DNA of 64,000 bases from assembly GCA_938034385.1 (NCBI GenBank), contig CALHLC010000031.1, positions 1 to 64,000 on the forward strand, in the 5' to 3' direction. The stretch's first letter is position 1, and each line of letters starts with the position of its first letter. The notes beneath the pieces are model-generated. The model did no database searches. It was not told where the DNA came from and was given only the letters and a program-made list of their open reading frames with translations. This stretch comes from an uncultured Bacteriovoracaceae bacterium (GTDB lineage Bacteria; Bdellovibrionota; Bacteriovoracia; Bacteriovoracales; Bacteriovoracaceae). This document shows positions 22,560-64,000 of the stretch, piece by piece. A program made the position numbers and the translations under genes.

Positions 22560-23306
22560 ATGAAGTTATTAATATTACTTTTACCAATTTTGGCTTTTTC
22601 AAATAAAGGCTTAGATATTTCAAGAAAAGTTGAACAACAAAATAATGGATTTATTGGCGAAGAATCAACAATAACCATGCTTTTAATTAATGCTCAAGGC
22701 GATAAAATTACAAGAAAGTTAGTCTCTAAAGCTTTAGAAATTCCTAAAGATGGCGACAAATCTCTAATTACTTTTAAAGTACCTAAAGATGTTGCTGGAA
22801 CAAAAATGCTTACCTGGTCATATAAAAAAAATGATGATGATCAATGGCTTTTTCTTCCATCTTTAAAAAAGGTAAAACGTATCCATTCTAACAATAAAAC
22901 TAGCTCTTTTATGGGAAGTGAATTCTCTTATGAAGACCTTGGTAGTCAAGAACTTGAAAAATACACTTATAAATTTATTAGTGAAGACGACAAAAACTGG
23001 GTCATTGAAAGAAAGCCTGTGAATAAAAGTGGATATTCAAAGCAAGTCAGTACTATATCAAAAAAGTTAATGACCGCTACAAAAGTTGACTATTTTAATA
23101 AAAGAAACGAATTAATGAAAAGAGCAGTATCTAAAAACTTTAAGGCCTATAAGGTTAATAATAAAAAAATATTTAGAGCTGGTACAATTCATATGAAAAA
23201 CCTTCTTACAAAAAAAGAATCTATTCTAACTTGGTCAAACAGAAAGTTAGGTGTAAAACATAATAGTAATCTTTTTAAAAAAGAAGGCCTTAATGAGAAT
23301 TTTTAG
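22560..23306 (+). CDS. LolA-like outer-membrane lipoprotein-sorting family protein
   Basis: The 248-residue protein has a signal peptide (KLLILLLPILAFS). The body matches the LolA-like family that accompanies MMPL/RND transporters: GTKMLTWSYKKNDDDQWLFLPSLKKVKRI, then SSFMGSEFSYEDLG. It should be periplasmic and may bind lipid or another hydrophobic ligand in its half-barrel. The start lies 7 nt after an AAGGAG Shine-Dalgarno. It overlaps the next gene by 14 nt and forms a three-gene unit with a barrel protein and an RND-type transporter. Confidence 0.82.
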   Translation: MKLLILLLPILAFSNKGLDISRKVEQQNNGFIGEESTITMLLINAQGDKITRKLVSKALEIPKDGDKSLITFKVPKDVAGTKMLTWSYKKNDDDQWLFLPSLKKVKRIHSNNKTSSFMGSEFSYEDLGSQELEKYTYKFISEDDKNWVIERKPVNKSGYSKQVSTISKKLMTATKVDYFNKRNELMKRAVSKNFKAYKVNNKKIFRAGTIHMKNLLTKKESILTWSNRKLGVKHNSNLFKKEGLNENF

Positions 23307-24513
23307 TCTCGTTTTTTTTTTATCCTTAAATATATTACCATTTTCTCAATTTGATGTAGAAACAACTTTATCCCAAAGAGCTTATCAAGAAGATCAAAAC
23401 CCTATTACAAATACTTATAATACCTCACTTGGACTTAAACTTAGTGGAAAAGCCAAGTCTGAAGAAGATAACTACAGAGTAAAAGTTGTCATTGATTCTC
23501 TTTACGATTTTATGGATGAGGATAGGTTCTACGTTTATCCTGAGGAAGCATGGATAGGATATGATGACGGCTCACATATTTTAAAAGTTGGATTTCAACA
23601 TTTTAACTGGTCTTCTACTGAAGCATTCAGACCTTCTGATGTTGTGAATTCTAGAAACCTTGATACCCAGATCAAGAATGCAAGTAAAATAGGTGAACCA
23701 ATGATTTCTTATAAGAAGATTATTGGACAAGCAAGCTTAACAACTTTTGTTTCACCATTTTTTATGAAACCACTTTATCCAGGTCTTAAAAGTTCTTATG
23801 CTACTCCTTCCCTTCCTGTTGATAGTTATTTAATATTTCAAGGTGATTCAAGAACCGATAAAGACCCATCTAGTTTTCAAGGTGGAGTAATTTTTAATTT
23901 TTCAATTTCTAAATCAGACATTGCCCTCCATTACATTAATCATATTGATAGAGATTCTTTTATACCTCTCATTGATCCTGTAAAAAGAATAATTACACCC
24001 ATTTATTATCGAAAACAACAAGTAGGTCTTACATCTCAAAATGTAATTGGAGGTATGATTTTAAAAACTGAATTCGTATCAAGATTTTTTACTCAAGATG
24101 TAATAAACTTTTCTCAAAACAATTTAAAAAATTATCACGTTGGCACTATTGGTATTGAAAAAAACTTTCCAATCGGAGATGGCGAGCTAATCTTTCTAAC
24201 AGAATATATTAAAGCTTTTTCTCAAAACTCCTTTCAAGCAAACTCTGAAGTTTTTGATAATGATTTATTAGTTGGATTTAGGCATAGTTTTAACAATGTA
24301 AATGGTAGTGAGCTTAATCTTTCTCTAATTAGTGACATGAAAGAATATAATCAGTTTATTTTTAATTTTTCATACTCTCAAAGGTTAAAAAATAATTGGA
24401 AAGTAGAATTTGGTGTTAATTATGTTGATTCCGAAGTTACTCCAACATATACAGGTGCTGAAATTCTTGATTCAGCTGATTTCGCATACCTCAATATTAA
24501 AAAGTTTTTATAA
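23293..24513 (+). CDS. Outer-membrane beta-barrel protein of an RND triad
   Basis: The 406-residue product has a signal peptide (RIFSLVFFLSLNILPFS) and alternating hydrophobic/polar strands throughout. Segments such as EEAWIGYDDGSHILKVGFQ and WSSTEAFRPSDVVNSRN resemble DUF1302-type barrels that occur beside LolA-like and MMPL genes. It ends with an aromatic-rich terminal strand (FAYLNIKKFL). I infer an outer-membrane channel or receptor for the substrate moved by the downstream transporter. It overlaps both neighbours (14 nt and 1 nt). Confidence 0.75.
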   Translation: MRIFSLVFFLSLNILPFSQFDVETTLSQRAYQEDQNPITNTYNTSLGLKLSGKAKSEEDNYRVKVVIDSLYDFMDEDRFYVYPEEAWIGYDDGSHILKVGFQHFNWSSTEAFRPSDVVNSRNLDTQIKNASKIGEPMISYKKIIGQASLTTFVSPFFMKPLYPGLKSSYATPSLPVDSYLIFQGDSRTDKDPSSFQGGVIFNFSISKSDIALHYINHIDRDSFIPLIDPVKRIITPIYYRKQQVGLTSQNVIGGMILKTEFVSRFFTQDVINFSQNNLKNYHVGTIGIEKNFPIGDGELIFLTEYIKAFSQNSFQANSEVFDNDLLVGFRHSFNNVNGSELNLSLISDMKEYNQFIFNFSYSQRLKNNWKVEFGVNYVDSEVTPTYTGAEILDSADFAYLNIKKFL

Positions 24514-26804
24514 TGAAAAAATTTATTAGTTCTATTTCTCGTTTTTTAGTCAACAATCCAATAAAACTACTTATCGCTAGTTTAATTTTAGTTATAGCTC
24601 TGGCTCAAGGTCTTCAATACTTTGAAGCTGACTTTAGTTATAGAATTTGGTTTAGAACAACAGATCCTCTTATAAAAACATATGATAAGTTTGAGAGAAA
24701 ATTTGGTAATGACGATACTATTGTTGTTTTGATTCACAGTCCCTCAGGAATATTTGATGAAGATTCAATAAATGTCATAAGAGAACTTACTGACAATTTT
24801 TGGCAAGTTCCTGATATTATACGAGTTGATTCTATCACTAATTATCAATATACCCATTCAAAAGAAGATGATGTCATTATAGAAGATTTCATCCCTGAAG
24901 AATTTTCATATGATAAGCTAGTTCAAAAAAAAGAAATTGCACTTAAACATGAAGTCATTCCAGACTATCTTATTAATAAAGATGCAACTGTTGCTCTTTT
25001 ATATGCAAAGGTTAAGCCTTATCCAGGAGGAGCTCCAGATGATAAGCTACTAATTACTAAGTCCCAAGAGGCAATCAAGTCTATAGTCAATCAAGGAGAT
25101 CATCGCTTTTATATAAACGGTGCTACAGCTATCAATCATACATTTAGAGACGTTGCTGAAAGAGATACATCTACAATGCTTCCAATAGTGTTTTTAATGA
25201 TTATCTTTTTTCTTCTCTTATTTTTTAGAAAAGTATCTGGCGTGTTAATTCCATTTCTAATTATTTCGACTGCTCTTATTGCAACAGTTGGCTTTTCTGG
25301 ATTTATGGGAATCAAATTTAATAACATGATTACCATGTTACCTACAATTATTATTGCAATTGCCATTGCTGATACAGTCCATGTTCTAGTTACATATTTT
25401 CAATATAGAACCCAAGGTCATGATAATATTGAGGCTACTTATAAAGCATTTAGCAAAAATATTATACCTACTCTTTTAACTAGTATTTCAACTTCTATCG
25501 GTTTTTTAAGTTTTGCCCAAGCAGACCTTGTTCCTTTAGCTCACTTGGGAATTTTAGCCGCTTTTGGAACCATGCTAGCTTGGTTGCTTACACTGACCAT
25601 TGTGGCTCCAGTTTTGGTGTTATTTCCAATTAAAATTAAAGAATCTAAAATCAAAGAAAATAATCTAATTACTAATAAGTATTCTCCTGCTTTGTTTTCT
25701 TTCGTTAAAAAATTTAAATACCCTATTGTTATTAGTACATTAATTACTTTTGCCTTAAGTATTTATATTGCATTTCAAAATACAGTAAATTCTAATCCAT
25801 ATGCATATTTCAATAAAGATGTTCCTTTGAGAATTGCAAACGACTTTGGTCTTGAGGCCATGGGAGGAGTAACTGGTCCTGAAATTGTTATTTATTCTGG
25901 AAAAGAAGATGGAATCAAGAGTCTAGAGTTTTTAAGAAAAGTTGAAGCTTACGAGAACTGGCTTATAAAAAACGATGAGGTAACAAAGGTTATTTCAATA
26001 ATTGATATAATAAAAAATATGAATAAATCTTTCAACGGAGACAATCAAGAATTTTATAAGCTCCCTGATTCAGATAATGCAATTGCCGAGCTTTTATTTA
26101 TGTATACCATGAGTCTTCCTCAAGGGATGGACATTAATGATAGAATTAGTCTTGATTATGAATCAATGAGAATGACTCTTCTTTGGTCTTCCCAAGACTC
26201 TCTTTCATCTCTAGCTAATATTGAAAAATATAAAAAAGCTGCCAAGGACTTCGGATTAAATATGACCCTAACTGGAAAAATTCCTATTTACCAAGGAATG
26301 AATGACTTAGTTGTTGATACTTTTTTTACATCTATTTCTTATGCTATTATTGGTATTTCAATTCTACTCATATTTGCCTTTGGTTCTATAAAAGTTGGAT
26401 TAGCTTCAATGCTTCCCAACATTATTCCTCTTGGTTTCGGTGCTGCTCTTATGACTTTGCTATCTAAACCAATTGACATAGGAACTGCCTTAGTTACAAG
26501 TGTATGTCTTGGGATAGTTGTCGATGATACTATTCATTTTCTTTCAAATTATAATAAATATAGAAAGGAAGGTATGAGCATAGATGATGCTGTCTTAAGA
26601 GTTATTTCTTATACAGGACCTGCTCTTATCACTACTACAATGATATTAATTGGTGGCTTTGGTATAATGTCATTTTCAAGTTTTATACCAAATGTAAACT
26701 TTGGAATTCTCTCAGCTGTAGTTTTAGGGATGGCCGTCCTTGTTGATTTAGTTTTCCTACCAGCCTTTTTATTGTTAGAAAAACCATCTAAAGAAAAGAA
26801 TTAG
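24513..26804 (+). CDS. RND/MMPL-family transporter with sterol-sensing-like domains
   Basis: The 763-residue protein has twelve predicted helices in two halves (one helix, large periplasmic loop, five helices, repeated). The fourth helices carry the family acidic residues: IAIAIADTVHVLVTYF and LGIVVDDTIHFLSNYN. These fit the MMPL/HpnN/patched-like group that exports lipids or other hydrophobic compounds using the proton-motive force. It overlaps the upstream barrel gene by one base. The triad LolA-like + barrel + transporter argues for transport between inner and outer membrane; the substrate is not evident. Confidence 0.88.
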   Translation: MKKFISSISRFLVNNPIKLLIASLILVIALAQGLQYFEADFSYRIWFRTTDPLIKTYDKFERKFGNDDTIVVLIHSPSGIFDEDSINVIRELTDNFWQVPDIIRVDSITNYQYTHSKEDDVIIEDFIPEEFSYDKLVQKKEIALKHEVIPDYLINKDATVALLYAKVKPYPGGAPDDKLLITKSQEAIKSIVNQGDHRFYINGATAINHTFRDVAERDTSTMLPIVFLMIIFFLLLFFRKVSGVLIPFLIISTALIATVGFSGFMGIKFNNMITMLPTIIIAIAIADTVHVLVTYFQYRTQGHDNIEATYKAFSKNIIPTLLTSISTSIGFLSFAQADLVPLAHLGILAAFGTMLAWLLTLTIVAPVLVLFPIKIKESKIKENNLITNKYSPALFSFVKKFKYPIVISTLITFALSIYIAFQNTVNSNPYAYFNKDVPLRIANDFGLEAMGGVTGPEIVIYSGKEDGIKSLEFLRKVEAYENWLIKNDEVTKVISIIDIIKNMNKSFNGDNQEFYKLPDSDNAIAELLFMYTMSLPQGMDINDRISLDYESMRMTLLWSSQDSLSSLANIEKYKKAAKDFGLNMTLTGKIPIYQGMNDLVVDTFFTSISYAIIGISILLIFAFGSIKVGLASMLPNIIPLGFGAALMTLLSKPIDIGTALVTSVCLGIVVDDTIHFLSNYNKYRKEGMSIDDAVLRVISYTGPALITTTMILIGGFGIMSFSSFIPNVNFGILSAVVLGMAVLVDLVFLPAFLLLEKPSKEKN

Positions 26805-26807
26805 TTA

Positions 26808-29800
26808 TTATTGCTTATCCATATTTTCATATCTTATATTTTCAAAAGGCCTAAAAACATCACAGTCATTTACTGTTCTATTATTTTTAAATGCTTCTTC
26901 CCAAGTTCTAAAAATCCCCAAAACCCACTTTCTTATTCTAACTAAATCTATTCCACTCACAGATCCATCACCGTTAAAATCTAACTTTTTGCCCCCAAAT
27001 GTATTCTCTAAAAATGGTAAGTTAAATGGGTTAGGTGTAGGTTCACCAACTAATTTCAATCCAAGAATATGTCTTTGCAATACTACTAAATCCAACGTAC
27101 TTATTCCCTGACTTGAATTTATAGGTTGGCTAATATCGAAGTCACAAACTCTTAACGCGCGAGCATTAGTAAAAATTGTTCCTGAAGTATGATTAGGTAT
27201 ATTTCCATCTATAGTAGATTCAAGAGTTAAATTTGAATCTGATATTGAATGTCTTATCACTTTATTTCTTAATGATTCTTTAGTTTTACATTTATATTCT
27301 AAGAATTTTTTTTGTCCAATACCAAGGTTTAAAAGCTGCCACGTCCTTGAGTTTGCTCCTTGAAACACTCCTCCAGAATTAAATGTTTCTAATTCTGGAA
27401 TACCCATTGATCCTTCAGGGCACTCAAACTTATACATCACTCTTGGGGCAATCTCTGGTCCAAGATTTTCTAAATCTAGTCTATAATGTAAGTCCTCTCC
27501 TGATTTGATATTTAAATCACGCATCGATTTTAAAGTTACTTTAATATCTGATTGTTTTTGATCATTTATGACATTTATTGAAACCTTTTGAAATTCGTTT
27601 CTTACTTTATCTTCTTCATTTGAGGAGATATCTTCTGAATTAATAATAAAATCAATTACTGAACCTGCTAAACCAATATTTATTTTACACCTTAGATCAA
27701 TAGTTTCCTGAACACCTCTTGCCATTGTATCTATAGACCAGATGTCATTAGAATAAGACCCTTTAGTTGCTCCTGGTGCCCCCTCTACTGTTGTGCCACT
27801 TGGACATGTTAATCTAAACTTTACATTCGAAGCAGTATCTTTCCCAACATTAACTAATTGAACTTTATAACTTATCACTTCTCCTTCAACAAAATCCGTC
27901 TTAGTTTGATTAAGAACATTGGTTGTTAGGTCAATTTCTCTTATCTCTTCTTGCTGAACATTTATAGTTTCATTTATTTCATGATTTTCAATATTTTGAT
28001 CGATTTGATCTTCAGAAAAAATATATTGATTATTTCTTACAGAATAGCTTACTTCCTCTCCGACAAGAGATATACCTGCCTTACAAATGAAATTTATTCC
28101 AATAGATTCATTTGGAGCAATGCTCTTAGTACTAAACCAATCCTTTGATGATTCTATATTACTATTGAATGCAGTTAATAATCGTACAAAACTAAGAGGT
28201 GCAGGACAAAGAACATCATTAATTCGTAAAGAATTTATTGTATTAGCTCCTACATTTTTAGCTTCTAACCTTACATTTATCTCTTCATCTACATTTGGGT
28301 TTTTATTATCTATTGTTGCCTCTAATGATACATCTATTTCTTCTACTTCTTCTTTATGACAAGAGTTCACTGATAATTGAAATTCTAATTCATCCTCTCT
28401 ATGTAAAAGATCTTCTTTTAGAAATTCACTAAGAGGGAAATTTCTTCGAAAATGAGCAAAGTTTGTTACAGCCTCTCTTATATTGATGGTTTCAAATCCT
28501 CCATTTGCTAAAGGCCTATTTAGATTTTGAGTATTTTGTGAAAATGGTATATCTCCAAATCCAAGTGCACGACCAGCTTCAAGAAAACTTGGTTGAAATT
28601 CAGCAGAATCACTTGTAAACCCACTCATATGGCAAGATGAACAAGATGTATTCACAAGTCTATATTTCGCCATTGTTTTTTCATTATCACTAATTATTGA
28701 ATCATCTATATCATTAAATGCAACTGGACTTTCACTTCCTGATGGAATAAATGAAGCAACTCCTCTGTCTAATTCTTTTCCCCAGTTGGCTCTAAAACCA
28801 TATGTATTTTGCCAAGCCTCAAGCTTTGGAGGTAAGTGAAATCTTTGATTAAGATCACTAATCTCATTTTTATTATTAATTATGAATTCAACAATTTCTT
28901 TATTTCCTGTAGGACTAAATGGTTTATTTAGAAATTGTAAGTTTAACCCAACAGCACCCAAAGAAATTGTTGCATAACTGTCTTTAGGAGAATTCGGCAT
29001 TCTATGCCTAATTAAAAAATTTCCTTGAGACCCCATACTTTTATCAAGCCTCATTTCCATTAAAGACCATGGAGATTCATTAATAAAATCATTTACTCTC
29101 ACTTGGCCGATTGAACTTTGATTAGGCCATTTTGGATTGTTATAGTCTGCTATCGCAACTCTTTGAAGTACTTTCTCTAATTGATTAAGATAATCTTCAG
29201 TGCCTCTTGTTAAACAACTTAGCAATGCCCATTGTTCGTTCCAAGTTTTTCTATCCCACGGTTGAACCGATACTGCTTGATTACTTCCTAATTTCAAAGA
29301 GCCATTTTCCATAGCTAGCTTATACTCCAGGATAACAAAGTGCTCTTGTGTGCTTCCAGTTGATCCTACTTTTTGAAAAGTGAATCTTCCTTCTCCTGCG
29401 TGAATTAAGTCTCCACTTTCATTGTTTTCAATAAGGTCTGGCCTAAAAGCTATTGAAATTAAACTATAAGGAGATCGTTCTAAAAATCTTCTATTACCGT
29501 TTTCATCTGGCCCTGATTTTTCCCAATCGTTTACCAGTTTTTCTCTAGTTTTTACCAAAGGGATTAAATCATTTATTTCGTCAGTAACTTTCTCACCTGC
29601 TGGAATTTCAGAAAGAATAAGGTTATCTAAAAATTGATTTATAAATAATTGCAAGTGAGCATCATTACTTACGTTACTAGGCTCAATCATGTTTCTTAAT
29701 AAATTTGTAAATCCAAACCCTTTGTTCTCTATAGCGCTTAACACATTTGAATCTGTTATAAAGAGTGTATTATCATGCAAAATATCTCTTGCTTCATCTA

Positions 29801-29936
29801 CTCCAGAGCATAAACAGGAATCTAAAACAAAAGAATGCTTCTTCTTTACATCCGTTTTTTCAGCTTGATTCTCTCTTTTTTTTGATGAAAAACACGAACT
29901 TAACAATAATAGAACAAGAAGGGTTAATACTTTCAT
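26808..29936 (-). CDS. Large lipoprotein with CxxCH motif, DUF11-like repeats and terminal dockerin-like module
   Basis: The 1042-residue protein starts with a lipoprotein signal (LLLLSSCFSS, lipid Cys about 15). Residues 20-490 form a domain shared with the gene at 59911; it contains FRPDLIENNESGD, GEGRFTF, FVILEYKLAM and IGQVRVNDFIN segments seen in uncharacterised myxobacterial/deltaproteobacterial proteins, and a single c-type haem motif CSSCH near residue 430. Three DUF11/CARDB-like beta-sandwich repeats follow (about 540-650, 675-780, 800-910), each with a V/L-NxG and a Cys pair. The C-terminus (about 925-1015) has two dockerin-like loops: GISTLDLVVLQRHILG and DFNGDGSVSGIDLVRIRKWVLG. 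Function unknown; probably an outer-membrane surface protein. It converges with the transporter gene, 3 nt apart. Confidence 0.8.
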   Translation of the reverse strand: MKVLTLLVLLLLSSCFSSKKRENQAEKTDVKKKHSFVLDSCLCSGVDEARDILHDNTLFITDSNVLSAIENKGFGFTNLLRNMIEPSNVSNDAHLQLFINQFLDNLILSEIPAGEKVTDEINDLIPLVKTREKLVNDWEKSGPDENGNRRFLERSPYSLISIAFRPDLIENNESGDLIHAGEGRFTFQKVGSTGSTQEHFVILEYKLAMENGSLKLGSNQAVSVQPWDRKTWNEQWALLSCLTRGTEDYLNQLEKVLQRVAIADYNNPKWPNQSSIGQVRVNDFINESPWSLMEMRLDKSMGSQGNFLIRHRMPNSPKDSYATISLGAVGLNLQFLNKPFSPTGNKEIVEFIINNKNEISDLNQRFHLPPKLEAWQNTYGFRANWGKELDRGVASFIPSGSESPVAFNDIDDSIISDNEKTMAKYRLVNTSCSSCHMSGFTSDSAEFQPSFLEAGRALGFGDIPFSQNTQNLNRPLANGGFETINIREAVTNFAHFRRNFPLSEFLKEDLLHREDELEFQLSVNSCHKEEVEEIDVSLEATIDNKNPNVDEEINVRLEAKNVGANTINSLRINDVLCPAPLSFVRLLTAFNSNIESSKDWFSTKSIAPNESIGINFICKAGISLVGEEVSYSVRNNQYIFSEDQIDQNIENHEINETINVQQEEIREIDLTTNVLNQTKTDFVEGEVISYKVQLVNVGKDTASNVKFRLTCPSGTTVEGAPGATKGSYSNDIWSIDTMARGVQETIDLRCKINIGLAGSVIDFIINSEDISSNEEDKVRNEFQKVSINVINDQKQSDIKVTLKSMRDLNIKSGEDLHYRLDLENLGPEIAPRVMYKFECPEGSMGIPELETFNSGGVFQGANSRTWQLLNLGIGQKKFLEYKCKTKESLRNKVIRHSISDSNLTLESTIDGNIPNHTSGTIFTNARALRVCDFDISQPINSSQGISTLDLVVLQRHILGLKLVGEPTPNPFNLPFLENTFGGKKLDFNGDGSVSGIDLVRIRKWVLGIFRTWEEAFKNNRTVNDCDVFRPFENIRYENMDKQ

Positions 29937-30129: not shown

Positions 30130-30528
30130 ATGAAGACTTTATTACTACTATTTTTATCTCTAAATTCACTTTCTGAATGTTTTGTTAAATCTACAATTTG
30201 TGTTGGAAAAAACGAAACATCCAATGACTACGAACTTATTGATAAAAGTTGTCTTTTTTCTTATATGGAAGAAGATTCGAGTAAGTTAGTAAAATATATA
30301 AAAAACTATCAATATTTTATTATTAAGAATAATTATAAAAATATTAAAAATTTTTATAATTTAACTAAAGAAGAATTTTATAAGGAAGATTACAGACCTT
30401 TTAGTATTAAATTTATTAGGAAATCTTTTATTTTAAAAAATTTAAAGAACAAGTCAAAATCAGTTATTCCATTAAGTGACTCTACTTGTTCTTTTATTAA
30501 CTACATTGAATCTATTCCTGGTCATTAA
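30130..30528 (+). CDS. Small secreted hypothetical protein with cysteines
   Basis: The 132-residue product begins with a signal-like segment (KTLLLLFLSLNSLSE). The mature part is rich in Lys, Asn, Tyr and Phe and has four or five cysteines that could form disulfides (ECFVKSTICVG, KSCLF, STCSF). I recognise no family. The codon use is extremely AT-rich even for this window. It stands alone on the plus strand and ends one base before the convergent gene's stop. Confidence 0.5.
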   Translation: MKTLLLLFLSLNSLSECFVKSTICVGKNETSNDYELIDKSCLFSYMEEDSSKLVKYIKNYQYFIIKNNYKNIKNFYNLTKEEFYKEDYRPFSIKFIRKSFILKNLKNKSKSVIPLSDSTCSFINYIESIPGH

Positions 30529-59910: not shown

Positions 59911-62900
59911 ATGAATATTTTAAAAATATGTTTAGCGATTATAATGTTTGTCTCTTGTTTTAGTTCAAAAAAAATGAGTTCAAATAATGAAAAAGAAAAA
60001 CAGAATGAATCATTGAAATTCATGTCAACTCTTGATAATTGTTTATGTGAGAGTGATTCAAAAGCAAATGATATAGATCATACAAAATCTTTATTTATAA
60101 CGGACCAAGCACTTTTAAGTATTCTTGATTCAACTAAATATAGTTTTTCAAATTTATTAAAAAACATGAATGATCCTAATTTATTAGTTAGAGGAAATGG
60201 GATTGATCCTGATGAGCAATTTCATATATTTATTAAAAGATATTTAGATAATATGGTTCTAACTGAGATACCAGAAGATCAAAAAGTTGAAGGTGAGTTA
60301 AATGATATTCAACCTCTAACTAGAACTCATGATTTTATAGTATCTAGATGGGAAAAATCAGATCTTATAGAAGGGCAAGAACAGAAGTTTTTAGAAGATT
60401 CACCATATAAGCTAATAGGTATAGTTTTCAGACCAGACCTAATCGAAAACAACGAAAACGGAGACTTAGAGCATGGAGGAGAAGGTAGGTTTATCTACCA
60501 AATGACTGGAAATTTTGATGCGACAATTAGTCACTTTGTTATTTTAGAATATAAACTAGCCCTCGGTGATGGATCACTCAGAACAGGGGATGTAGTTACA
60601 AATACAGATGCTTGGAATAGAAAAAAGTGGAATGAAGAATGGGCCCGATTAAGTTGTTTAGACATAGAGTCAGAACAATTCCAAGTACAATTGGAAAAGG
60701 TTTTAGATAGAGTTGCTTTGGTTGATTACAATGATCCTAAATGGAGTAACAAGAGCCCTATAGGGCAAGTAAGGGTGAATGATTTTATTAATGGTTCTCC
60801 TTGGGCCTTATTTGAAAACAGACTGGAAAAAGGACCAGGTCCGAATTTATTAGTTCGACATAGAATGCCAAATTCTCCAAAAGATAACTTTGCAACATCT
60901 ACAAGTGGTGCCGTTGGACTCCCTATTAGTTCTTTAAATAAACCAATGAATCCAAATGGAAGTAAAGAAATAATTGATTTTGTACTTAGCGAGAAGGATA
61001 AAATAACAGATTTAAACGAAAGTTATAAACTGCCAGATATATTAACTGGTTGGCAAAATAACATATAGTCCAAATGCAAATTGGGGTAGGGAGTTTCATA
61101 GTGGAGTACCATCATTTATTCCAGAAGGTGAGTCTATAGCTATTCCTTTTAATAATATTGATGAATCAATAATCTCAAATACTGAAAAAACAATGGTGAA
61201 ATATAGGTTTGCTCTAAATTCATGTAGTTCATGTCATATGGATGGATTTACTTCAAGAAACGCTGATTATTCACCTTCGGTCTTAGAAGCAGGAAGAGCA
61301 TTGGGTTTTGGAGATATTCCATTTTCACAGAATATATTAGATGAAAATAGACCTCTCGCAAACGGTGGATTTGAGACAATAGATTTAAGAGGATCAAGGA
61401 CTTCATTTTTTCACTTTGCCTTCGGGAGCGGGTTCAGTGCATTTTTAAGAGAAGACCTTATTCATAGAGAAAACGAACTAGAATTTCAACTATCAGTTGC
61501 TTCTTGTGAAGAAGAAGAAGTTGAACAAGAGATAGTAGATGTAGATGTACAATTAGAAGTTAGTAATGATTCACCAGAAGTAAATGAGAGAGTTAATTTT
61601 ATTTATAAAGGTGAAAATGTAGGAAGTGGAAACATAATTAACTTAGAAGTTACTAATGTTAATTGTCCTGAGGGATTTTCTTTAAATTCTATTAATATGG
61701 AACATGAAAATGGAGATATGGATTGGTCTGGGGGCATATGGATTTTTAAAAATATTGCACCAGGAGTAAGTAGAAAATTAACGTTAACTTGTACTGCTCT
61801 TGAATCTAGTTCTAATACAACCATTATACATGAATTAAAGGAAAAAGATTTTAAATTCTCATCTCCACAAGTAGATACAAACTTAGATAATCATCTTGTG
61901 TTAAAAGAGCTATCTATTAAGGAGAAGTTAGTAGATGAAATTGTAGATATCGAATTAAATTTAGAAATAGATAAAAGTAATCCTGAAGTTGATGAAATAG
62001 TAAATTTTAAAGTTAAAGCAAAAAATGTTGGTGATAAAGAAATAAAGGCCTTTAAAATAAAGAAAATAATTTGTCCTGATGAATTTTCAGTAGTTAATAT
62101 AAGCCTTGAAAGTGGATCAAAAATTGAGGTGAGAGATTGGGCGATTGATTCAATTTTACCAGGTTCAGATATAAACCTTAGCTTTAATTGTAGAGTTTTA
62201 GAATCTACTAAAGGTAGAAGTATAGAATACTCAATAAATCATGATCAATTTGAATTTGCTAATAATCAAATGGATGAAAATTTAGAAAATCATGAAGTTG
62301 GTTCTATCATTGAAGTTAAAGATTCAAAAAATGTCGATATTGAAGCAAAGATAGTTCCATTTGGTTTTGATACTTTAAATGAATTACAAACTGTTAGTTA
62401 TAGAGTTGAGTTAAATAACTTAGGCCCAGACACAGCTAGTTCAGTTAGTCTCAATGTTTCTTGTCCTGATGGAACTGATCAGATAGGTAATGCTGCTATT
62501 ACAGCGGGAATATTTTCAAATGCTGACAAACTTTGGGTTATAGGTTCAATAGAGGCTAATAAAAAAGAAGGTATTAATTTAACTTGTAAGATAAAGAATA
62601 ATCAAGCAGGGAAGTTAATAGAGTTTAGAATTAAAAGTGAAAATATATCAACTGCTGAGAAAGACTTAAACAGAGATAATGAAGAGAGCCATGCAATTCT
62701 TAGAGTTTTAGAGAGAAAAAAAGAAAGTGATTTAGAGTTATTTTCAACTATAAATAATTTATCTCCTGTTGAAGGGGAAGAAATTACTTTCAGAGTTGGA
62801 GTTGTAAATAAAGGGCCTGATGAATCTGGAATTATTTCAATTATTGCAAGGTGTCCTGCAGATTCAGTTGAAATAAGAAGGTCAGTATCAGTATCAAGTT

Positions 62901-63868
62901 CCAAGTTATGGACTATAAATAACCTGTTAGTTGATAATGGAGATAGGATAAAGGCAAAAATTCAGGAATTAGTGTGTAAAGTTAATGAAGGAACAGAAGG
63001 AAAAAAATTAAAGTTTAGTATTCCTTCTTCAGATTTTTTCATGTCTTTACATGATGGTGATAAAACAAACAATACAACGTCAATTGAATTTGAAATAAAT
63101 GAAAAATTAGATGAGAAGAAGGTTAGTGATATAAAAGCGACTTTAGACGTTTTAACTCCTGAGGTAAAAGCTGGAGAATCTATTTTTCTTAAAATTGATC
63201 TTGAAAATATTGGGCCTGAAGTTGCCACTGAAATGAAATATGACGTGCTTTGCCCAGAGCAATTAAACACTGTACCCATTCAAATATCGATAAGTAAGGG
63301 TAGTTTTTCAAGTTCTGGAACAAAAGGTCAATGGAAAATAAGTAGTTTTGGAGTAAGAGAAAAAGCAGTGTTAAGTTATCGATGTGCAACTTCTGAGTCA
63401 ATAACTAATAAAGATGTACAGATAAAACTTAAGCAAGAGCAACTAACTTTAGATGATAAAAATGTAGATAATAATATAAATAATCATATATCTAACAATA
63501 AAAACATAAAAATTTCTGGACTTAGAGTCTGTGACTTAGACCTTAGTGAACCAAGAAATTCAAGCGTCGGAATAAGTACATTAGATATAGTTCAGTTGCA
63601 AAGACATATTCTTGGGATAGCTCTTATCGGTGAAAAAGAACCTAACCCAGGAAATGAAGCTCACTTAATGAATGTATTTGGTGGTAAAAAATTAGATAAT
63701 AATGGAGATGGTCGAGTTTCAGCAATAGATTTAATAAATATGAGAAAATGGATTTTGGGCCATTATTCTAGCTGGGAAGAGGCTTTTAAAAACTCAAGAA
63801 CTGTAGATGATTGTGATATTTATAGGCCGTTTGAAAATAATAGATTTGAAGCAATAAAGGGGAATTAG
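59911..63868 (+). pseudogene. Paralogue of the 26808 lipoprotein, interrupted by a 1-nt frameshift
   Basis: Two frames (59911-61068, and from about 61062 to 63868) together encode one protein of about 1,318 residues that aligns throughout with the lipoprotein at 26808-29936. The first part has a lipoprotein signal (IIMFVSCFSS, Cys about 16), FRPDLIENNENGD, GEGRFIY and IGQVRVNDFIN. It breaks at WQNNI, where the paralogue reads WQNTY; dropping one base at 61057-61062 restores the frame through PNANWGREF. The second part has the haem motif CSSCH, five DUF11-like repeats and the same dockerin-like end (GISTLDIVQLQRHILG, DNNGDGRVSAIDLINMRKWILG). The rest of the frame is undamaged, so a recent mutation, sequencing error or recoding are all possible. 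Confidence 0.8.
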
Positions 63869-64000
63869 ATGTATAGGTATATAATAGTTTTATTTTTTAT
63901 AAATATGTCTTACGCAATGAAGTTTAACCATTTTAAATATGGATGTAAGAGCGAAGTTGAAAAGATAAAAAAGAAAAATTGTTCTGTGGTGGAAATCAAA
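63869..64000 (+). CDS. Start of a secreted protein, cut by the window end
   Basis: An ATG directly after the stop of the lipoprotein paralogue opens a frame of 44 codons that continues past the window. It begins with a signal-like segment (YRYIIVLFFINMSYAM) followed by a Lys-rich stretch with two cysteines. No family can be assigned from this length. The zero-gap position suggests co-transcription with the large lipoprotein. Confidence 0.6.
   Translation, partial: MYRYIIVLFFINMSYAMKFNHFKYGCKSEVEKIKKKNCSVVEIK

Follow-up and report, generated by a model that had tools for sequence, protein, structure and literature searches.

The closest described systems to the locus analysed here are the c-type cytochromes, the type I dockerins (PF00404), the DUF11 repeats (PF01345, TIGR01451) and a set of CxxCH proteins encoded on rhizobial plasmids. 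The N-terminal domain of the lipoprotein that is our subject, copy A, shares with the c-type cytochromes (c555, c552 and CcP) a helix-then-CxxCH segment and a later conserved His, but the rest of this domain of ~490 residues matches none of them, and no Met ligand was identified. The end of copy A scores above the cut-off of the type I dockerin profile and has cellulosomal dockerins as its best PDB sequence matches, but no cohesin was found in the four genomes of the genus, its first loop is enlarged, two conserved Cys residues flank it, and it is not carried on an enzyme. The three DUF11 repeats likewise score over the cut-off of their family, and such repeats are commonplace in this setting: other proteins that the genome encodes match A in its DUF11 part alone. 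The rhizobial plasmid proteins share with the proteins of this genus the family signature, a single CxxCH and an R/K-x(1-3)-H placed at the C-terminal end or close to it; they differ in that the tail is in the same chain, there is no DUF11-dockerin build, and no small downstream partner was seen.

Copy A and its broken paralogue

Copy A lies in the window, by which we mean the whole stretch of 64,000 nucleotides that was analysed (G000:C31:1-64000, from a genome of 2.67 Mb). It is a single open frame with an ATG start (Table 1), for which the original prediction had proposed a lipid anchor, an uncharacterised domain with one haem-type motif, DUF11-like repeats, a dockerin-like end, and membership of an expanded family. 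All of these were borne out: we found a lipobox (L-S-S-C15), exactly one CxxCH (CSSCH) in the 1042-aa lipoprotein, no Pfam or NCBIfam family and no PDB match for residues 37-529, Pfam DUF11 with E 6.3e-24 (84.9 bits against a cut-off of 24.6, three stretches), Dockerin_1 with E 3.2e-6 (27.7 bits against a curated cut-off of 22.9), and at least 18 copies of the N-terminal domain (hereafter N-domain) in four genomes of the genus, which belongs to the Bacteriovoracaceae. Given that all segments of copy A recur in homologues, their combination is not a matter of chance.

Table 1. Positions in the window of copy A, paralogue B and the associated small genes
Feature	Coordinates	Strand	Remark
Copy A lipoprotein: N-domain, three DUF11 repeats, dockerin-type end	26808-29936	-
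Signal peptide; lipobox LSSC, its Cys15 followed by Phe	29892-29936	-	Read from translation
N-terminal CxxCH domain (residues 37-529) of a wide, unnamed family	28350-29828	-
C-S-S-C-H motif, residues 432-436	28629-28643	-
F-A-H, residues 493-495, candidate second haem ligand	28452-28460	-
Three DUF11 repeats, about residues 533-915	27192-28340	-	Pfam
Dockerin-type end, residues 931-1025	26862-27146	-	Pfam match itself 26928-27122
Divergent secreted-looking ORF, 132 aa, 4 Cys, ends IPGH	30130-30528	+	At most a candidate for the partner of A
Paralogue B, first part (N-domain, before frameshift)	59911-61068	+
Paralogue B, second part (CxxCH, five DUF11, dockerin)	61046-63868	+	Listed ORF starts at 61193, frame opens at 61046
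Small partner gene of B, 112 aa, ends PSRAH	63869-64000	+	Continues past the window to C31:64204

By the Lol rule, Asp at position +2 after the lipobox Cys bears on the membrane sorting of lipoproteins; in copy A this residue is Phe, not Asp, and the protein would thus be sorted to the outer membrane. Copy A is most likely an outer-membrane lipoprotein that we infer to carry a single haem and to bind the R-x-H tail of a partner. No plasmid homologues of full-length copy A were found. The end of the gene is 3 nt from a convergent MMPL gene (24513-26804), part of a row at 22560-26804 (+) comprising a LolA-like lipoprotein-sorting protein, a 406-aa protein and the MMPL transporter.

The original prediction counted two paralogues of A in the window. 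The two frames concerned, the second taken from 61193, align successively to about residues 6-378 and 378-1038 of A, and given this consecutive match they are, on their alignment, one gene, B, with its frame broken near 61046-61068, so that the reading as two separate paralogues was rejected. At the break site the frame is intact both in A and in a homologue of 1055 aa in a second genome of the genus (G003), which is closer to B (76% in the first part, 41-56% in the second) than to A (45%). The break may be a genuine frameshift or an error of the metagenome assembly. Both halves of B are well conserved despite the frameshift, and B has five DUF11 stretches where A has three. A giant-copy homologue in G001 (L126) is likewise split, into two overlapping frames.

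An unnamed domain and its CxxCH motif

The source genome holds the N-domain six times, in A, in B, and on C27 (593 aa), C21 (553 aa), C17 (506 aa) and C50 (2277 aa), and the copies in the four genomes of the genus are split 6, 3, 4 and 5; these counts are lower bounds, given that the best few candidates per genome were scored. Nine copies have neither DUF11 nor dockerin, and in some of these the lipobox is followed by a long Ser/Thr linker; five have DUF11 (A, B and three others), and four are in giant Cys-rich proteins. Lipobox-like sites were present in most copies whose N-terminus lies in the assembly, and C41, C43, C241, C432, C435, H436, H495 and C526 are invariant in 14 aligned members. 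Since the N-domain is the segment common to all 18 copies, it is this domain, rather than the DUF11 repeats or the dockerin-type end, that would be the working part of copy A.

The Ser/Thr low-complexity linkers after the lipobox are of very different lengths in L119 (C27), L120 (C21), L053 and L054, and the contigs of L052 and L054 stop inside Thr runs, so that the assemblies break there. In the giant copies (about 2.2 kaa; L122 1594-9150, L124 1033-8499, L126 6890-14804) many Cys-rich repeats precede the N-domain, and in three genomes a small gene resembling an outer-membrane beta-barrel lies upstream of the giant copy and a partner gene downstream.

Outside the genus, a profile of 14 rows had matches in 12 of the 368 genomes of the phylum, of which three (G047, G031 and G134) were merely ordinary cytochromes when read, and the profile extended with distant members matched in 27 of the 368 and in 19 of the 234 good genomes. 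A tblastn search found relatives on plasmids of Rhizobium and Sinorhizobium, and then of Pararhizobium, Rhizobium and Mesorhizobium (for example WSG98795.1 and WP_275791453.1), annotated, where annotated at all, as 'hypothetical protein'; no plasmid homologues of L062, L064 or L101 and no phage homologues of L066 were found. The 44 rows kept were reduced to 41 family members by dropping a multi-haem cytochrome (L068) and a protein lacking CxxCH (L109) and by counting the halves of B once. CxxCH is present in 41/41. A pattern match places F-x(0,1)-H after it in 37 members, and reading by eye in 39, the exceptions to the latter being L062 and L063, in which the domain is preceded by a TIG domain and a choice-of-anchor repeat, respectively. 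Residues R165, G181, W290, C432, C435, H436, F493 and R513 are identical in all of 23 sequences from two phyla, and in thirteen distant or rhizobial proteins the domain has no Pfam or NCBIfam name. By this signature, the N-domain belongs, as one branch, to an unnamed but widespread family of secreted proteins, which spans at least the Bdellovibrionota relatives and the Rhizobiaceae and, although outside the libraries used, can now be recognised.

The original prediction suggested that the protein might be redox-active, and offered cytochrome c profiles and structure prediction as checks. In its favour, the CxxCH is invariant in the family, and a CcsA-type protein (3.6e-33) and ResB (1.2e-9) are encoded side by side on C20, so that System II haem attachment exists in the genome; CcmF is absent from it. 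The profile and structural checks gave less. No cytochrome profile of Pfam or NCBIfam scored above cut-off on copy A, and the PDB sequence matches of the N-domain, although mostly to cytochromes (c555 the best, CcP, c552), are weak and cover about 35-60 residues, and the i-E of their single stretches lies between 0.21 and 3; one match at 1.2e-7 arises from three copies in one chain. An AF2 model of the N-domain had a mean pLDDT of 57.5, fair to about domain residue 250 and poor across the CxxCH. Foldseek found no usable relative for this model (best E 0.047, TM 0.08), nor did a VIA search with it find one (Z at most 4.0), its best rows being a DUF3836 protein and pea fructose-bisphosphatase at Z about 4; a row for cytochrome P460 (2je2) was rejected as noise (Z 2.7).

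This lack of a profile match and of a recognised fold, together with the further conserved residues C41, C43, C241 and C526, would suit a thiol or metal protein in which the CxxCH is a redox disulfide or a metal site. The His of the motif would be needless for a bare disulfide, however, and it is invariant in 41/41, while the encoded System II pair and the rank of c555 as best PDB sequence match also point away from that reading, which we regard as unlikely. The CxxCH domain thus probably carries haem, with His436 of copy A as the proximal ligand and His495 as the likely second one, and attachment of this single c-type haem would fall to CcsA and ResB.

A small partner and its C-terminal tail

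A small gene lies directly downstream of 17 of the 18 N-domain copies, at a spacing of -22 to +39 nt, copy A being the exception. The 17 products look secreted, are 102-145 aa long and 15-60% identical to the first of them, and have four invariant Cys residues. Each ends in His, and 16 end in R-x-H, the remaining one in KVGH. In a background of 232 other complete ORFs of at least 90 aa, drawn from the same loci rather than from the whole genome, seven have a C-terminal His, and an R-x-H end occurs in none (Fisher 4e-21 for the His end and 3e-24 for the R-x-H end, values to be read in the knowledge that the partners are homologous, so that their tails are not independent). The profile built on the partner matched exactly these 17 in the four genomes of the genus; the one match outside it (G172) is an unrelated secreted protein lacking the tail and was rejected. 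No family of Pfam or NCBIfam and no PDB entry fits the partners, for which we saw isolated weak matches of single members only, and no title or abstract among those listed by the literature searches mentions such a pairing. The divergent ORF near copy A (Table 1) was not reported by the partner profile. In three loci (L120 7136-7576, L053 9842-10267, L052 1793-2206) a small protein resembling cyclic-nucleotide-binding proteins follows the partner.

Within the genus, no CxxCH protein among the 18 itself ends in His. In several relatives the CxxCH protein bears the tail, as in L064 (STRVH), L066 (KSHH) and the Rhizobium and Sinorhizobium proteins L085 and L086 (RRTH), and no small partner was seen downstream of these. 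Nine proteins of the Bdellovibrio-type clade have R-[VIL]-D-G-H at a distance of 3-22 residues from the C-terminus, and one rhizobial sub-clade ends near K/R-x-D-x-H. Small downstream proteins do occur outside the genus, ending in RVH and RSH in G349 and G095 (L129 and L133); a similar partner-like protein adjoining L062 in G277 ends in KKKSN. Neither in cis nor just downstream was a His tail found for L065 (two copies), L143 or L096. A conserved C-terminal R-x-H tail thus travels with the CxxCH family, in cis or in trans, and chiefly on the strength of this Rosetta-stone pattern, tail and domain probably interact; that they bind each other directly we rate at even chances.

Tag systems, too, have a final residue that does not vary behind a linker that varies greatly, and the occurrence of the tail both in cis and in trans would fit such a role. 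On that reading, the machinery of export or of the surface would recognise R-x-H as a C-terminal tag for sorting or processing, and the CxxCH protein would not be a binding partner but would handle the tag or be the enzyme that processes it. A general tag should recur, however, whereas no other ORF at these loci ends in R-x-H, and no hydrophobic segment precedes the motif, unlike the MYXO-CTERM and GlyGly-CTERM tags, in which such a segment is present. We consider the tag improbable.

If tail and domain do bind each other, the domain would hold its partner by the R-x-H tail, near the conserved Arg165, Glu182, Arg184 and Trp290 or near the haem, and where a relative carries the tail on its own CxxCH chain, that tail would fold back. 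The partnerless copy A presumably either needs no partner or shares that of B. In the copies that have them, and these are only some, the DUF11 repeats would form a stalk and the calcium-loop dockerin end a cap, by which the reach of the protein or its contacts with other proteins are set. The function may be to sense redox conditions outside the cell, or to carry out chemistry there on the partner or together with it. Taken as a whole, this account of a haem N-domain with an R-x-H partner, a stalk and a cap is the best explanation we have, and the balance is even as to whether it is right. We advance more tentatively, as possible but doubtful, that the pair is a new two-part extracellular module, in which a CxxCH domain with one haem and its own distinct fold captures, ligates or chemically modifies the Arg-x-His tail that ends its cognate small secreted protein, in cis or in trans by lineage, and which in this genus has multiplied as paralogous, lipid-anchored pairs, some on DUF11/dockerin stalks.

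The DUF11 repeats and the dockerin-type end

The original prediction gave a surface-displayed, extended adhesin as one inference. In a reading of this kind the DUF11 stalk and dockerin end would be the business end and the N-domain no more than a base near the membrane. The DUF11 and dockerin profiles, the extended repeat build and the five DUF11 stretches of B speak for it. We found no direct support for it, however: the segment common to all 18 copies is the N-domain, nine copies lack both DUF11 and dockerin, the partner follows N-domain genes with or without DUF11, and five of the six copies in the source genome are in two-gene units with it. An adhesin is therefore a poor prospect in our view, and secondary to the strongest part of the findings, the CxxCH family and the R-x-H tail coupled to it.

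The second loop of the dockerin-type end, D-F-N-G-D-G-S-V-S-G-I-D, is a textbook dockerin calcium loop; in the enlarged first loop of A part of the Asp/Asn set is missing, but in G001 this loop is canonical. The flanking Cys residues are conserved in 5/5 and may clasp the module. Dockerin_1 scored 24.9 bits on B with its neighbours, and an AF2 model of the dockerin end (pLDDT 44.7) was too poor for a fold search. No cohesin was found in any of the four genomes of the genus (the control of this search rings in 1 of 14), and the cellulosomal reading was therefore rejected; here a dockerin module is used away from cohesins. Seven of the eight Dockerin_1 matches in the four genomes are in N-domain proteins. 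The eighth, the sole match outside the N-domain family in the genus, is a secreted-looking protein of 274 aa (L125 6817-7638, G002:C1).
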